Shown here in pieces: positions 234 to 52,649 of a stretch of DNA of 64,000 bases. Source of the DNA: Sphingobacteriales bacterium 50-39. GTDB taxonomy: Bacteria; Bacteroidota; Bacteroidia; Chitinophagales; Chitinophagaceae. Made by a program: the position numbers and the translations under genes. The notes under the pieces were generated by a model. It saw nothing but the letters and a program-made list of their open reading frames with translations. It did no database searches and was not told the origin of the DNA. The first letter of the stretch is position 1. Each line of letters starts with the position of its first letter. The stretch is taken from contig MKTZ01000015.1 in the NCBI GenBank assembly GCA_001898505.1, positions 434,001 through 498,000 of the forward strand. The letters run 5' to 3'.

Positions 234-323
234 ACCAGGAACCGCCGGCGGCGGTTCGTCCGAAGGACAGACATTAGCCCTATGCGGGAATTGGGCTATT
301 TTCGGGCGAAGACCAATTCCCGC
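232..323 (-). repeat. Dispersed palindromic repeat, copy R1
   Basis: Three nested palindromes follow each other: GAACCGCCG/CGGCGGTTC (about 239-257), GTCC-GAA-GGAC (258-268) and GCGGGAATTGG/CCAATTCCCGC (284-294 with 313-323, 18-base loop). The block from GTCCGAAGGACAGACATTAGC through the third palindrome recurs almost unchanged at 50827-50891 (R5), and the first part is shared with the copy inside xylB (10682-10776, R2), where the reverse strand likewise reads TTC-TGGT-AGG at the far end. It lies between two genes that converge (TIGR03118-type and the helicase), a place where it could act as a two-way terminator or RNA-stabilising structure. The strand given is the one on which the shared CTAATGT block reads forward. 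Confidence 0.75.
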
Positions 324-332
324 ACTTATTAT

Positions 333-6913: not shown

Positions 6914-8584
6914 CTACCAGAATATCGTATACAATGCCGCCAGCAATCCGCAAATGATCAGCGCACCCACGGCAAATCCCGGATTGACCCTGAACATTTT
7001 CCTGTCAACTTCCAGTCCATGCGGCTGTACACCTCTCTTATTGTCCCGCAGGCTGATAAAGTACATGCCGACGACACAGATGACGAATACAAAACCCATC
7101 CTGTCCAGGAAAGGTATCTCATACACGCCGTTATCATTGGCCTTGGCAAACCCAAAGGGCGCCAGGAACGAAAGATTGGTCCATAAAGGAAGGAACTTGA
7201 AGAAGAAGGCAAAAACCAGCCCGCCCACCGTCGCAAAAAGAGCGGCGTTCGACGTAGTCTTCTTCCAGAAGAATCCCAGGATGAACATGGCGAATATGCC
7301 CGGAGAGAAAAATCCCGTATACTCCTGTATGAACTGGAATCCCCCCTTCTTATCGATGCCCAAAAAAGGCGATATGATAATGGCAACGATCATGGCTACC
7401 ACCACCGTCATCCGGCCGATCCAAACCATCTTACGCTCGTCGGCCTCCGGCCTGATCTTCTTCTTGTAAATATCCAGGGTAAAGATGGTAGAGATGCTAT
7501 TGACCTTGCCCGCCAGCGATGCTACCACCGCCGCCGTCAACGCAGCAAAGGCCAGCCCCTTCAATCCCGCCGGCAGCAGGTTCAGGAGCACGGGATACGC
7601 ACGGTCCGGATTTACTTCCCCATTCTGGAGCATCTCCGTGCTGAACACATTTTGTTTATACAGCAGATAGGCCGCAATACCGGGAATGACCACGATCACC
7701 GGCATCAGCATCTTCAAAAAGGCGGCAAAAAGTATCCCACCGCGCGCCGTCTTCAGGTCAGCGCCCAAAGCACGCTGTGTAATATATTGATTGCATCCCC
7801 AGTAGTTCAGGTTCACGATCCACATCCCCCCGATCAGCACCGTAAGACCCGGCAGGTCCATATAATTGGGGTTATCCTTTTTAAAGATCATATGGAAGTG
7901 ATCATCCACATGGGACGTCAGCAGCTTCATTCCATTGAGCACGCCCTTGGTCCCAAAATGCTCGGCTACCAGGTTCAACGCGATGTAGGTAGTGACAAGC
8001 CCGCCCAGTATGAGGAAGAACACTTGTATCACATCTGTATAGCCAATGACCTTCATACCTCCCAGCGAGATGACGATGGCAAAGATGGCCAGCCCCAGCA
8101 TACAGGCCGTGAAAGGAAGTCCGGAAATGCTGCTCACCGCCAACGCGCCCAGATAAAGGATGGAAGTGAGGTTCACCACCACGTACAACAACAACCAGAA
8201 AACAGCCATGATCATCGCCACCAGGGAGTTATACCGCTGATGAAGAAATTGCGGCATGGTGTAGATCTTATTCTTGAGATACACCGGTATAAAAAAGATA
8301 GCCACGATCATCAACGTGGCTGCCGCCATCCATTCATACGTAGAGATGGCAAGACCCATCTTAAAACCGCTGCCGCTCATCCCGATGAACTGCTCGGCGG
8401 ATATGTTGGAGGCGATCAGCGAAGCGCCAATGGCCCACCATGTCAACGAACCCTCCGCCAGGAAATAGTCCTTGGTGCTGGTCTGCGCTGACTTCTTACG
8501 TTGGTATACCCACCAGCCGTACAATGCAACAATGACAAAATAAATAAGGAAAACAATGTAATCGCGGGTCTGTAACATTTGCAT
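6914..8584 (-). CDS. Sodium/solute symporter of the SSS family, probably for xylose
   Basis: A 556-residue inner-membrane protein with the 13-14 hydrophobic segments of sodium/glucose-type (SGLT-like) carriers. I start at ATG 8584 (MQMLQTRDYIVF), next to the first membrane segment; the open frame extends 14 codons further but these are not typical. Recognisable family stretches are KDYFLAEGSLTWWAIGAS, SAEQFIGMSGSGF, GGMKVIGYTDVIQV, NYWGCNQYITQRALGA and SLAGKVNSISTIFTLDIYKK. It closely resembles the symporter at 50943-52649 in the arabinose cluster, so the two are paralogues. Position behind xylB-xylA points to xylose (or a xylose-containing sugar) as substrate; this is inferred from context. 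A 148-base gap holding a hairpin separates it from xylA. Confidence 0.9.
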   Translation of the reverse strand: MQMLQTRDYIVFLIYFVIVALYGWWVYQRKKSAQTSTKDYFLAEGSLTWWAIGASLIASNISAEQFIGMSGSGFKMGLAISTYEWMAAATLMIVAIFFIPVYLKNKIYTMPQFLHQRYNSLVAMIMAVFWLLLYVVVNLTSILYLGALAVSSISGLPFTACMLGLAIFAIVISLGGMKVIGYTDVIQVFFLILGGLVTTYIALNLVAEHFGTKGVLNGMKLLTSHVDDHFHMIFKKDNPNYMDLPGLTVLIGGMWIVNLNYWGCNQYITQRALGADLKTARGGILFAAFLKMLMPVIVVIPGIAAYLLYKQNVFSTEMLQNGEVNPDRAYPVLLNLLPAGLKGLAFAALTAAVVASLAGKVNSISTIFTLDIYKKKIRPEADERKMVWIGRMTVVVAMIVAIIISPFLGIDKKGGFQFIQEYTGFFSPGIFAMFILGFFWKKTTSNAALFATVGGLVFAFFFKFLPLWTNLSFLAPFGFAKANDNGVYEIPFLDRMGFVFVICVVGMYFISLRDNKRGVQPHGLEVDRKMFRVNPGFAVGALIICGLLAALYTIFW

Positions 8585-10080: not shown

Positions 10081-11661
10081 TTATAAATATTTAAGTAATA
10101 TCTCTTTCCACCGGTTATACAATTCCTCGTACTCGCCGGCGCTTCCGGGATCAACCCGTTGCAGCGGCTTCCTTCCCGCAAATGCCTCTTTCCCGCTGCG
10201 GAAAATGCCCGCCCCGATGCCGGCGCCCAGGGCAGCCCCCACGCTGCCATCATTGTCATACAGCTCCACAGGCGTCCGCGTGGCGTTTACAAATGCTTCC
10301 GTAAACACGCTGCTCAGGAACATATTCGCCCGGCCGGCCCTGATCACCGAAGGGTTCATCCCCCCTTCGCGCATGATGTCCAATCCATAGCGAAAGGCGA
10401 AGGCAATACCTTCCTGGCCCGCCCGGTAGATATGCGCAGCGCCATGCTGGTTGAGGTCGATGTGCTGTATATGCGCCCCGATGATCCGATTGCGGAATAT
10501 CCGCTCCGCGCCATTGCCAAATGGCAGCACCACCAGCCCCTCGCTGCCCGGCCGGATAAGAGCCGCCTCCTTGTTCAATGAGACATAGTCGGCGCCGCCC
10601 CCTGTATGATCGCGTATCCAGCGATTGAGGATACCGGTGCCGTTGATACAAAGCAGGATGCCGATGCGCTTCTCAGCCTCACCAGAACGAGCCGGAGGCT
10701 CGTTGTCCAGAACCGTAGGTTCCGACCGAGGAGGACCGTGTCGAAGCAGGTCCGACGAAGGCCTACCAACATTAGATACCGGGAGACGGTAGTTGACGTG
10801 TGCGAAGGAATTTACGCGTGAGGCCGGATCATAAACCAGTTTGTCGCTCACCCCATAGATGACCCCCGAAGTCCCCGCGGTGGCAGCTACCTCCCCGGGT
10901 TCCAGCACATTTAACGACAACGCATTGTTGGGCTGGTCCCCTGCCTTGTAGGTTACAGGTATTCCCTTCTTCAGTCCCAGCGTCTGCGCCACCTCGGCCA
11001 TCAACTCTCCATGAGCCGAAAATACGGGCCGGATGGCAGGTATCAATCCCTTATCAAAACCAAAATAACGGAAGATGTCTTCAGAAAGCTCGTCCCTCTT
11101 AAAATCCCAGAAGATGCCCTCTGACAGGGCCGGAATGCTCGTAGTCACCTCGCCCGTCAGACGTAGTCCGATATAATCCCCGGGAAGCATTATCCGGTCA
11201 ATCTTCTCATACACACGAGGTTCCTGGTCCTTGACCCAGGCCAGCTTGGCCGCTGTAAAATTGCCCGGTGAGTTCAACAGATGAGAGAGGGTTCTTTCTT
11301 CCCCAATGGCGGCAAAAGCCTTATCCCCATAGGGAACGGCCCGGCTGTCACACCAGATGATGCTGTCTCTCAATACCCGCCTGTCCTTGTCCACCGTCAC
11401 CAGCCCGTGCATCTGATAAGCAATGCCGATGGCAGCGATATCCTGGGGATCATAGGCGCCCGAAGCATTCGCCTTCCGGATGGCCTGCTGTACATACTCC
11501 CACCATGTCTCGGGAGACTGCTCCGCCCATCCCGGCTGCCGGACAAGTATCGACGCTTCGGTATCGGGGTATTGAGCTGTCGCCAGCGTTCGCTGCGCAG
11601 CCGCATCCACCACAGCCACTTTTATCGATGAAGTTCCCAGATCAATCCCAAGTAATAGCAT
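10081..11661 (-). CDS. xylB: Xylulokinase with an in-frame repeat insertion
   Basis: Phosphorylates D-xylulose with ATP to xylulose 5-phosphate. FGGY-family kinase: N-terminal phosphate loop [30 protein letters not shown], the sugar-binding [11 protein letters not shown], and C-terminal GGGADY and [16 protein letters not shown]. Start ATG 11661 places the first beta-strand at residue 1. The protein is 526 residues, against about 495 for the family, and the excess is a segment of about 31-35 residues between [10 protein letters not shown] and [12 protein letters not shown] (bases 10682-10776) rich in Pro, Arg and Ser. That segment is a copy of the dispersed palindromic repeat. It falls where normal kinases have a short loop, so activity may be kept; this is inference. 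First gene of the xylB-xylA-symporter set. Confidence 0.95.
10682..10776 (-). repeat. Dispersed palindromic repeat, copy R2, inside xylB
   Basis: Read on the minus strand this 95-base block starts TCTAATGTTGGTAGGCCTTC and ends near GAGCCTCCGGCTCGTTCTGG. It shares CCTTCGTCGGA and CTCGGTCGGAACCT with copy R4 (46672-46760), GGACAACGA-CCTCCGG with R5 (50806-50842) and the distal TTC-TGGT-AGG end with R1. GAGCC-TCC-GGCTC forms a hairpin at the same place where R1 has the different but also palindromic GAACCGCCG/CGGCGGTTC, so pairing is kept while sequence changes. The insertion has no stop codon in the xylB frame and adds the residues [13 protein letters not shown]...NEPPARSGE. Confidence 0.8.
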
Positions 11662-46493: not shown

Positions 46494-46677
46494 TGCAACG
46501 ATTCCTGATCCTTTTCCGCGAACCCGCCGGACGCAAAGACTGGTCCGCACCGACCACCCCTCCCTGCAAGAACAAAACAAAGTCATCGTCCGTCGCTTCA
46601 ATACAGCGTTTATACAATACTGTGATATATTCGCCTTTCAGGAGATCATCGACCCTACAGGTCATCAATTAGCCTAA
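46494..46677 (+). pseudogene. Fused remnants: YCII-like start and SnoaL/ester-cyclase-like N-terminus
   Basis: From ATG 46494 one frame reads MQRFLILFREPAGRKDW, similar to the start of YCII-type proteins (M-x-x-F-L/M-L-x-F-R). From about 46564 another frame reads LQEQNKVIVRRFNTAFI and continues DIFAFQEIIDP to TAA at 46675-46677; NK-x-I-V-R-R-F-N is the conserved opening of SnoaL-like ester cyclases. Neither domain continues. Both look like ends of deleted genes joined together, just before repeat R4. Confidence 0.45.
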
Positions 46678-46760
46678 CGTCTGAGACCTTCGTCGGAAGA
46701 ACTTCGTACCTCGGGTACTTCGAAAGCTCCTTCTCGGTCGGAACCTCTCGGTCCCGGTCA
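46672..46760 (+). repeat. Dispersed palindromic repeat, copy R4, upstream of araB
   Basis: Block order: CTAACGTCTGAGA, CCTTCGTCGGA, then AGAACTTCGTACCTCGGGTA (palindrome GTACC-TCG-GGTAC), TTCGAAAGCTCCTT and CTCGGTCGGAACCT. CCTTCGTCGGA and CTCGGTCGGAACCT are identical in the xylB copy R2; the middle block matches fragment R6 (8694-8725) nearly base for base. It occupies the gap between a pseudogene and araB, ending about 105 bases before the araB start. Confidence 0.75.
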
Positions 46761-46865
46761 ATGTGATGGGTATTCCTCCGACCGGCCCGTCAGGCCGAAA
46801 ATATATTTTTAAAAACAAAAAAATAAATGTTATTTTGACAAGAATAAATACCGGAACCCCGCCAT

Positions 46866-49307: not shown

Positions 49308-50807
49308 ATGGATCTAAAAAAATTTGAGGTCTGGTTTGTCACAGGCAGCCAGCATTTGTACGGAGAAGAAACATTGAAACAGGTAGCAGAGCATTCGAAG
49401 ACGATCGCGAAAGCGTTGAACGATGCCACGCAAATCCCTGTAAAGGTCGTGTTCAAGCCTACTGTAAAAACACCCGACGAGATATATAACATATGTGTAG
49501 AAGCCAATACTACCAGGGACTGCATCGGCATCATCGCCTGGATGCACACCTTCTCGCCTGCCAAGATGTGGATCGCCGGGCTTAAGGTCCTGCACAAACC
49601 CCTCGTACACCTTCACACCCAATTCAACAGGGATATCCCCTGGAGCGCCATCGATATGGACTTTATGAATTTGAACCAGAGCGCTCACGGTGACAGGGAG
49701 TTCGGGTTCATCATGACCAGGATGCGCCTGGAGAGAAAGGTTATTACCGGTCACTGGCAGGATGATCAGGTATTGGAAAGCCTTGGCGCGTGGGCCCGTG
49801 CGGCAGCCGGATGGCACGACTGGCAGGGCGCCCGCTTCGTACGCTTTGGTGACAACATGCGCCAGGTGGCCGTTACAGAAGGCGATAAGGTTGAGGCGGA
49901 GATCAAGTTCGGCTACGCTGTCAATACCTATGGCGTGGGTGATCTCGTAAAGGTCATCGGTCAGGTCAGCGATGCCTCCATCGAGCGGCTGGTAAAAGAA
50001 TACGACGAAAAATATACGCTGGCGCCGTCCCTGGGCAAAGGCGGGGAACAACATAATTCCCTGCGAGAGGCCGCCCGCATCGAGCTCGGGCTTCGCGCTT
50101 TCCTGGAAGACGGAGGGTTCAAAGGGTTCACCGACACATTCGAAGACCTGCATGGCATGGTCCAGCTTCCCGGCATTGCTGCGCAACGGCTCATGGGCAG
50201 CGGGTATGGATTTGCGGGGGAGGGCGACTGGAAGACGGCAGCCCTCGTGAGAGCTATGAAAGTAATGGGCCACGGACTGCCTGGCGGCAACTCCTTTATG
50301 GAAGATTATACCTATCATTTCGATCCTGATAACAGCCTGGTACTGGGCGCTCATATGCTGGAGATCTGCGAATCCATCGCGGAAGGCAAACCTTCATGCG
50401 AGATCCATCCCCTGGGCATCGGCGGCAAGGCCGACCCCGTCCGGCTGGTATTTAATGCCCCGGGAGGTCCAGCCATCAATGCTTCTATTATTGATATGGG
50501 CAACAGATTTCGGATGCTGGTAAATGAGGTCATTGCCGTACCGCCTATACAAAGTCTGCCCAAGCTGCCCGTAGCACGCGTGCTTTGGAAACCATATCCC
50601 GATATGAAGACAGGATGTACTGCCTGGATCTATGCGGGTGGTGCGCACCACACCGGCTACAGCCAGAACCTGACGGCGGAGCATATGCAGGACTTCGCGG
50701 ACATGGCAGGCATCGAATTCGCGCTCATCGGAAAAAACACCGACCTCCATCAGTTCCGTAACGAACTCCGCTGGAATGATGCGTACTATCAGCTGCACCG
50801 ATACTGA
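49308..50807 (+). CDS. araA: L-arabinose isomerase
   Basis: Converts L-arabinose to L-ribulose. 499 residues, the usual length. Opening [24 protein letters not shown], metal-ligand region [73 protein letters not shown] (Glu ligands and His), FMEDYTYHF and [13 protein letters not shown]. Repeat R5 starts right at the stop codon. Confidence 0.97.
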
Positions 50808-50891
50808 ACGGACCGGAGGTTCGTTGTCCGAAGGACAGACATTAGCGGTTTGCGGGAATTGGGCTAATTTTTGTCGAAGACCAATTCCCGC
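50806..50891 (-). repeat. Dispersed palindromic repeat, copy R5, behind araA
   Basis: Begins at the araA stop. It contains GTCC-GAA-GGAC (50827-50837), GACATTAGC and the palindrome GCGGGAATTGG (50852-50862) / CCAATTCCCGC (50881-50891) with an 18-base loop, in the same order and spacing as R1 at 258-323. The first part, read on the minus strand as GGACAACGAACCTCCGG, matches the far end of R2. It lies in the 135-base gap between araA and the symporter gene and may tune the expression of the symporter relative to the enzymes. Confidence 0.8.
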
Positions 50892-50942
50892 ATATTTAAA
50901 ACCAATAACCCCTAAACTCAACCATAAAATTTAAAGCTCCAT

Positions 50943-52649
50943 ATGAATAAAAACCTCGTTTTTGCCGATTATGTCGTCTTTGCGATCTATTTCGTCATCG
51001 TCGCCAGCTACGGTTACTGGATCTATCGCAGGAAGAAGAAGACCGTCACCGACACAAAGGACTTCTTTCTGGCAGAAGGTTCGTTGACATGGTGGGCCAT
51101 TGGCGCATCGCTGATCGCATCCAACATATCTGCCGAACAGTTCATCGGCATGAGCGGGGAAGGGTTCTTTGCGGGCATTGCGGTGGCGGCCTACGAATGG
51201 ATCGCCGCCATTGCGCTTATCATCATTGCCGTATGGTTCATACCGATATATCTGAAGAATAAGATATACACCATGCCGCAGTTCCTGAAGACACGCTACA
51301 ACGAGACGGTGGCCCTTATCATGGCCATCTTCTGGCTGCTGCTGTATGTCTTTGTGAACCTTACCTCCATCCTTTATCTGGGCGCCATCGCCATCAATGG
51401 TCTGGTCGGCGGGGATCATCTTCATAGCATCATGATCGGGCTGGCCATCTTTGCCCTCATCATCACCCTGGGTGGTATGAAGGTCATTGGTTTCACCGAT
51501 GTGATACAGGTGGGTGTCCTCATCATTGGCGGTCTTGCTACTACCTACCTGGCGTTGACGGTCGTCTCCGAAAGCTTTGGCCTGGGCAGCAGCGCCCTGG
51601 AAGGTTTCAAGGCTCTGATGCGGGATGCTCCGGAGCACTTTAAAATGATCTTCCATAAGCCGACCCAAAGCACCCCGCAGCTGGAAGTAGATAAGTACCT
51701 CGTGCTTCCCGGTATTGCTATGTATTTCGCTGGTCAATGGATCGTAAACCTCAACTATTGGGGATGCAATCAATATATCACGCAACGTGCTTTAGGCGCC
51801 AATCTCAAGACAGCCCGTACAGGCATTCTCTTTGCCGGCTTCCTCAAGCTGATGATGCCCATTATCGTCATGCTCCCGGGTATCGCCGCCTACGTGCTGT
51901 ATAAGAATGGCCATCTCAACCTCGATGGCGGCAGAAAGGATTATGCCTACTCAGCCATCCTGGGTTTCCTGCCCTCGGGATTAAAAGGCCTGTCCATCGC
52001 AGCCCTGACAGCAGCCATCGTTTCTTCCCTGGCCGGTAAGGTCAATAGCATCTCCACCATCTTTACGCTGGACGTCTATAAGAAGTATTTCAATAAAGAG
52101 GCAGATGAGCAAAAGATGGTATGGACAGGAAGGATGGCCGTCGTGCTGGCCATGGTCATTGCCATCCTCTTTACCTGGAAGGATTTGTTAGGCATTGGGG
52201 GCAAGGGTGGTTTTACCTTTATTCAACAGTATACAGGTTTCATCAGCCCCGGGGTGTTCGCCATGTTCCTGTTGGGGATGTTCTGGAAAAGGACCACCGG
52301 CGCTGCTGCCATTGCAGGGCTGGTCACAGGGTTCGTCCTTTGCATATTTTTCAACCAGTTCGCTCCCCAGGTCATGGGGCATGAAACGTGGTTCTACACC
52401 GCCTTCCCCACCCAGGAAGAGGTCAACGGAGCCTTGCAGACAGTCTGGAGGATACCCTTCCTTATCTGTATGGGACTGGCTTTCTTCTTTACGATGCTCG
52501 TCATGGTCCTCATCAGCCTGGGCGGCCCGAAAGTCAATCCCAGGGCCTTTGTCCTGGACAAACAAATGTTCAAAGTGGCGCCTTCCACAATGGTTCTCAT
52601 CGTCGTTACGCTGGTCCTTTTGATGGCGCTCTATGTAAAATTCTGGTGA
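50943..52649 (+). CDS. Sodium/solute symporter of the SSS family, probably for L-arabinose
   Basis: 568 residues, inner membrane, 13-14 hydrophobic segments. Same family landmarks as the xylose-cluster carrier: KDFFLAEGSLTWWAIGASLIASN, SAEQFIGMSGEGFFAGI, LGGMKVIGFTDVIQVGVLI, NYWGCNQYITQRALGANLKTAR and SSLAGKVNSISTIFTLDVYKK. Start ATG 50943 sits right before the first membrane helix (VVFAIYFVIVASYGYWI). Its place between araA and araR points to L-arabinose as the substrate (compare the araT carrier in Bacteroides). The C-terminal helix (MVLIVVTLVLLMALYVKFW) matches the one in the paralogue. Confidence 0.92.
   Translation: MNKNLVFADYVVFAIYFVIVASYGYWIYRRKKKTVTDTKDFFLAEGSLTWWAIGASLIASNISAEQFIGMSGEGFFAGIAVAAYEWIAAIALIIIAVWFIPIYLKNKIYTMPQFLKTRYNETVALIMAIFWLLLYVFVNLTSILYLGAIAINGLVGGDHLHSIMIGLAIFALIITLGGMKVIGFTDVIQVGVLIIGGLATTYLALTVVSESFGLGSSALEGFKALMRDAPEHFKMIFHKPTQSTPQLEVDKYLVLPGIAMYFAGQWIVNLNYWGCNQYITQRALGANLKTARTGILFAGFLKLMMPIIVMLPGIAAYVLYKNGHLNLDGGRKDYAYSAILGFLPSGLKGLSIAALTAAIVSSLAGKVNSISTIFTLDVYKKYFNKEADEQKMVWTGRMAVVLAMVIAILFTWKDLLGIGGKGGFTFIQQYTGFISPGVFAMFLLGMFWKRTTGAAAIAGLVTGFVLCIFFNQFAPQVMGHETWFYTAFPTQEEVNGALQTVWRIPFLICMGLAFFFTMLVMVLISLGGPKVNPRAFVLDKQMFKVAPSTMVLIVVTLVLLMALYVKFW

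Follow-up and report, generated by a model that had tools for sequence, protein, structure and literature searches.

The xylB locus

The window, a stretch of 64,000 nucleotides (G000:C15:434001-498000) within the 7.9-Mb draft genome of Sphingobacteriales bacterium 50-39 (G000), carries on its minus strand a gene, xylB, for an FGGY-family, xylulokinase-like kinase (10081..11661). From an ATG at 11661, it runs for 526 codons plus a stop, and its product contains the Pfam domains FGGY_N and FGGY_C. The best NCBIfam match is XylB, with a score of 284 bits that lies below the model's cut-off of 380. The named XylB records that match best come from the Chitinophagaceae and their kin, including a Puia dinghuensis MAG.

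Lodged within this gene are foreign codons (10681..10788, minus strand), corresponding to residues 293-328 of window:10084-11664:-. They end before LLCINGTG, and the reading frame stays open through them without a stop. The net gain relative to other kinases is 35 residues, rather than the roughly 31 that the initial annotation of this DNA had given: the span from RVN to NGTG is 62 residues in the window XylB, 43 in one relative (G001), and 27 in 101 of the 102 readable relatives, which are not all independent, as some named loci share their site sequence with genus loci. The relatives comprise 109 loci (29 from the genus and 80 named), seven of them unreadable by the pattern at the site. The expectation that most relatives would lack the segment was thus borne out.

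How might the kinase accommodate so much additional material? An AlphaFold2 model built with 36 sequences has a mean pLDDT of 85.5, and the only stretch below 50 is 293-329. This stretch is predicted to sit in the turn between strands 285-288 and 334-339, in keeping with the earlier suggestion that structure prediction would place it in a loop. The fold of the model matches xylulose kinases, with 2itm first. Against two relatives, xylB has dN values of 0.069 and 0.071 with a dS of about 1.5, a figure that is near saturation and mostly predates the insertion. Together with the model, this favors a working enzyme with a loose extra loop.

Anatomy of the repeat

The foreign codons contain a repeat copy, found at 10682..10775 on the plus strand as a full-length match (108.3 bits) to R1, a covariance model of the repeat built from 18 copies. 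The match includes modules A and B and the ACATTAG box, and in the orientation of the model it is antisense to xylB. On the plus strand, the order of a complete repeat is hairpin A, module B with its two hairpins, the box CAGACATTAG, and a large terminal hairpin C that comes in two sequence types, GCGGGAATTGGGC and CCGGAAAACGGGC.

To describe the xylB copy by its parts (all plus strand), the module A hairpin, AACGAGCC-GGA-GGCTCGTT, occupies 10686..10704, and six of its eight pairs have both bases changed in one or more of the 18 copies. The first hairpin of module B, GAACC-GTA-GGTTC (10710..10722), is seen in the sequence and in the DNA fold. The second (10724..10763) follows the pattern X4-GAG...CGAA-X4' and here reads GACC-GAG, an inner stem GGACC/GGTCC, and CGAA-GGCC; its outer helix has compensatory changes, and its inner stem appears in the covariance comparison. 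Last, at 10769..10789, comes the ACATTAG box with, by eye and in comparison with complete copies, only the first arm of hairpin C (CCGGGAGACGG). The initial annotation had recognized 10682..10776 as a palindromic repeat in frame inside xylB, and both the interspersed copies and the open frame uphold this. It had also equated the ends of the protein segment with those of the repeat, which holds in part: the segment covers the repeat together with half a hairpin and, since residues 293-328 correspond to bases 10681-10788, runs about 12 bases past the right end that had been given.

Other forms of the repeat consist of A and C only or of B only. Two partial A-C forms without module B were found in the window by model match and self-comparison, both on the plus strand: one at 235..324 (model match 235-277, hairpin C 245-324) and one at 50803..50892 (model match 50803-50845, hairpin C 50813-50892). 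A weaker, intergenic copy lies at 46674..46778 on the minus strand (43.4 bits; E of 3.3e-7 in the genome search).

The case for structure rests on a comparison of copies and not on the folding of a single one; the xylB copy by itself folds no better than shuffled sequences (z of -1.29 as DNA and -0.81 as RNA). Of 19 predicted pairs, eight show a change of both bases in one or more of the 18 copies. The outer helix of module B varies among copies as GAAC/GTTC, GACC/GGTC, GCCC/GGGC, and GATC/GATC. In the 119 of 175 copies in which its pattern was found, 376 of 476 pairs are formed versus a mean of 318.9 after partner shuffling, and none of 2,000 shuffles reaches 376, although the test is a lenient one because shuffling ignores relatedness. 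Neither terminal inverted repeats nor a target-site duplication, the hallmarks of a MITE of a DDE transposon, was seen in the aligned copies and sites, where ends vary and sites have diverged. With diverged flanks and copies that end at different modules, no target duplication or exact ends can be defined.

Could the repeat have been shaped for translatability? Among 140 copies of at least 80 bases, with the last 10 bases trimmed, the mean number of open frames per copy is 3.51; dinucleotide shuffles average 2.96, and flanking stretches (n = 278) 2.19. The idea was set aside, as this difference is small and may owe much to base composition.

Copy number and spread

By BLAST, the 95 bases of the repeat match at least 46 other aligned pieces of their own genome (best E of 1.2e-24; best 40 of 90 candidates scored), some of these pieces belonging to one copy. 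These matches go far beyond chance. Over long stretches, the xylB segment shares 80-93% identity with copies located elsewhere. The covariance model gives at least 70 matches in this genome at E<=0.01 and 101 at E<=1.

The same model places the repeat in at least 14 of 33 genus genomes. In a family sample of 195 genomes, searched with stricter filters, it was found in its own genome only; G009, G030, and G032, genus members that are also in the family sample, lacked it in both searches. Phage and plasmid records, from which near kin of the repeat's own genome may be absent, gave no match.

The copies examined in relatives were mostly the stronger ones among the matches listed. For the coding tests, 113 model matches less four short A-C matches (L034, L037, L141, and L149) left 109, which with 66 further copies made 175; five of these lie too close to an end for the coding-flank test.

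Copies inside genes

Repeat copies avoid genes. Only 5 of 68 copies in G000 were found inside them, four in frame and one breaking yhcG, and the window is about 88% coding. Besides xylB, the genes with in-frame copies are those for an alpha-N-acetylglucosaminidase (NAGLU), a MacB/FtsX permease, and a small unnamed protein (L025).

In the NAGLU gene (L015:934-3249, minus strand), the repeat falls between RRT and FYGKP when the DNA is aligned. Most genus homologues align to the protein in two parts, up to about residue 389 and from 418-419 on, and human NAGLU (4xwh) breaks at the same point. Among 18 genus loci, the segment is absent from 16, and two (G022 and G001) carry other material there, so that the site is not simply empty. 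The G022 gene (L083:2500-2649, minus strand) is a paralogue of another type, and its roughly 30 extra residues correspond to an A-C form (19.7 bits, E of 0.0019 with filters off) with hairpin C visible. That of G001 (L082, region 2500-2600) has seven extra residues, by eye hairpin A alone, for which the model E of 0.37 is not significant.

The G000 permease (L180:473-3211, plus strand) is about 19 residues longer than its relatives, which read VLKG-HFK or SFK up to PRK. L025 has 79 residues from HHRR to NLYKG versus 40 in G028 and G017; it is the weakest of the four G000 cases, because the region is variable. The orthologue comparison covered xylB, NAGLU, and this permease, and their inserts were absent from most orthologues.

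Sister species supply three more in-frame copies, in the MacB/FtsX permeases L332 (G003) and L349 (G022) and in the PTS enzyme I L361 (G008). These are the 3 of 107 fetched relatives' copies that are flanked on either side by coding sequence and whose genes have a Pfam domain; they fall outside the orthologue comparison, and the G022 NAGLU case was found apart from them.

Does the repeat impose a peptide of its own on its hosts? When the seven cases that have module B are anchored on CGAAG, five are read in sense and two in antisense orientation, and four frames occur in all: NAGLU, L025, and PTS enzyme I use sense phase 2, the G000 and G022 permeases sense phase 0, xylB antisense phase 0, and the G003 permease antisense phase 1. 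No single peptide is thus maintained.

The broken gene is of the yhcG type (DUF1016/PDDEXK). At L016:1567-2925, a copy interrupts it and leaves the nuclease domain split over two open reading frames (ORFs). Overall, the supported cases are eight in frame and stop-free versus one that breaks a gene, a count in which interrupted genes may be too few, as the two-ORF loci L159, L363, L368, L348, and L358 stand outside it.

Several other loci were considered and set aside. L172, L156, L352, and L035, taken as possible split genes, are actually neighboring genes. ORFs with one or no coding flank were not counted as in frame; nor were L315 and L334, which have no Pfam match, or L181 and L330, in which an ORF runs across the copy and the coding flanks differ in frame. 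L321, in which a fatty-acid hydroxylase and DUF2147 share one ORF, was likewise not counted. Its ORF (L321:454-1848, in G001) has repeat-derived sequence between the two domains, and the second gene may simply start inside it.

Origin of the extra segment

What, then, is the extra segment of XylB? Very probably, it is one copy of a short (about 60 to 150 bp), modular, structured, non-autonomous mobile repeat of one genus clade. The repeat would have reached xylB by transposition from another copy. Selection would remove most insertions into genes, and those that survive would be the ones that kept the frame, brought no stop, and fell in a tolerant loop. Read by the ribosome, the repeat would then form an additional, disordered loop in a kinase that would still work. 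By analogy, our reading is that the repeat may work much as the Rickettsia palindromic elements and the intragenic REPs do.

A more elaborate proposition is that the repeat enters the same protein loops again and again, is clade specific and still moving, has no transposase gene flanked by its own copies, and shows some site preference. Taken whole, this is rather unlikely. The same loop has been hit in three distantly related permeases from three species, which are 33-38% identical over aligned columns and carry the insert in two orientations. However, the permease family is large, with at least 27 matches in G000 (best 27 of 111 candidates scored), and the coincidence may be explained by many targets that share one tolerant loop. 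Similarly, the same NAGLU-family site has been hit in three species, by A plus B in G000, by A-C in the G022 paralogue, and by what is, by eye, hairpin A alone in G001. The occupation of this site in two of 18 genus loci slightly raises the odds of site preference.

What moves the repeat? One possibility, against which the chances are considerable, refines the mobile-repeat reading: a REP-like element might be moved in trans by resident RAYT-like Y1 proteins. Locus L050 encodes two adjacent relatives of the REP-associated tyrosine transposase (NF047646; 65.4 and 52.9 bits), although both scores are below that model's cut-off of 80. Of the 14 genomes that bear the repeat, 12 have weak Y1 matches about 200 residues long, and the hairpins and the lack of a visible target duplication would fit such a route. 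However, Y1 matches were not seen in G008 and G031, which bear the repeat, and were seen in G030, G019, and G023, which gave none; this mismatch points to common descent as the source of the overlap. No repeat match at E<=0.01 was found in L049 or L050, which span about 2 kb on each side of both Y1 loci. Nor are the GTAG and CGTC tags conserved: 8 of 18 copies have CGTC after hairpin A, and 5 of 18 have CCTAC, the reverse of a GTAG tag. If a mobilizer had to be named, our guess would be the L050 pair as the best candidate to hand.

The two genes of that pair lie at L050:1243-1812 and L050:1938-2537, and the first gives no Pfam Y1 match. An IS200-like transposase gene without flanking repeats is located at L049:1923-2402, and its neighbors, by eye, are apparent genes of aromatic amino acid biosynthesis.

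Alternatively, the repeat could serve chiefly between genes, as a structured regulatory or RNA element such as a structure at mRNA 3' ends, and its copies inside genes could be accidental. Such a role would be compatible with mobility; we consider it a little less probable than mobilization in trans. Coding sequence on the same strand on both sides was not found for 150 of the 175 copies, the structure shows compensatory change, and some sister-species copies lie between ribosomal protein genes, as at L156:2001-2101 (G017; between L14 and L24) and L352:1001-1098 (G027; between L16 and S17). On the other hand, the copies end at different modules, and Rfam at its gathering score gave nothing in the window and nothing on the repeat in nine repeat-bearing loci; the matches listed are tRNAs elsewhere and weak chance matches. 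Moreover, when the loci of G000 (68 copies) and G017 (39 copies) were compared, only three pairs matched on both flanks (L020/L137, L173/L141, and L174/L149), a turnover that favors mobility and that a conserved regulatory role would not predict, though older shared sites may be missed because blastn was run with flanks of up to 700 bases.

Far less probable is a native variable loop, in which the turn tolerates changes of length and the segment arose locally. In its favor, the xylB gene of G001 (L052) has a 16-residue segment at the same turn, and that of G016 (L055) has a Gly-rich insert after NRWIRDLANG, about 20 residues beyond the turn. The initial annotation had named a different segment in relatives as the sign of a native loop. 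Among the readable relatives, such a segment turned up in G001 only, where the DNA, by eye, is a local duplication of adjoining kinase sequence and not the repeat, which makes the loop tolerant rather than native. In the 101 relatives with the short spacing, that spacing is invariant. The dispersed copies, to which the segment is so closely similar, largely refute a local origin. Equally improbable is removal of the repeat from the mRNA, intron-like or as a ribozyme, to leave a normal protein: the repeat is indeed structured and found in conserved enzyme genes, but the frame would then not matter, and yet the tally of in-frame, stop-free cases is eight to one, with no Rfam match at the repeat.

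Relation to known repeats

Rickettsia is the best-known host of translated palindromic repeats. The initial annotation had looked to this host for a precedent, which stands, although the accounts available to us describe such repeats from elsewhere as well (PMC3733652, PMC2229807, and PMC10969869). As those accounts have it, the Rickettsia palindromic elements (RPEs) (Ogata et al. 2000, 2002) are about 105 to 150 bp long and occur both between genes and in frame in unrelated conserved genes (PMC2229807 and PMC10969869), and the guanylate kinase of R. conorii with such an insert is reported to be translated and active (PMC2229807, citing Abergel 2006). The family described here is similarly palindromic and similarly found both between genes and in frame in unrelated conserved genes. 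It differs in lineage and in modular make-up, a distinction that rests on published descriptions rather than on sequences. Further, each RPE is described as having a conserved peptide (PMC10969869), whereas the seven cases here use four frames and both orientations.

The intragenic GTAG/CGTC REPs are portrayed as small hairpin repeats, mostly intergenic, some of which are translated inside genes in several species (Opitutus terrae, R. conorii, Thauera, and others), and Bacteroidetes, too, are reported to have CGTC repeats (PMC3733652). The present repeats resemble them as small hairpin repeats that are sometimes inside genes. In contrast to REPs as described, with 20- to 40-bp units tagged GTAG or CGTC (PMC3733652), the unit is larger and the tags are not conserved. 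Enterobacterial RU/ERIC-type small mobile sequences are likewise described as fused in frame with other ORFs (PMC2229807); for several of these, terminal inverted repeats or target duplications are mentioned, neither of which is definable in this family.

How should the family be classified? It has three features of protein-coding palindromic repeats, the group that includes the RPEs: (i) dispersed multiple copies, (ii) hairpin structure across copies, and (iii) in-frame, stop-free inserts that most orthologues lack. One preferred frame with a conserved peptide, as in the RPE type, was not found; neither were the marks of a REPtron, namely, a conserved GTAG/CGTC tag and copies flanking a RAYT gene. 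A search of the open-licence literature turned up neither this repeat nor any account of in-frame repeats in the Chitinophagaceae. We file it as a new family of a known kind: the kind is in print, and the size, modules, and lineage differ.

The same behavior appears in large genomes of a phylum unrelated to Rickettsia, with uninserted relatives at hand. Each natural insertion, whether in the kinase, the glycosidases, the PTS enzyme, or the permeases, can be compared with close relatives that serve as controls, which makes it testable whether such inserts cost, change, or leave an enzyme alone, and what moves them. Is a loop that is used again, as in the permeases and NAGLU enzymes, merely tolerant, or is its DNA a preferred site? 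If repeated entry into the same loops were true, the repeat would go on supplying proteins with disordered segments.

Two minor observations concern sequence arrangement. At L018:2002-2263, two inverted copies lie about 70 bases apart, like REP dimers, and adjoining sequence is found again, with 80-100% identity over 34-70 bases, in loci of G001, G017, and G028. Within the window, 7380-8482 and 51048-52165 form an inverted match at 71-88%, probably representing paralogous genes.
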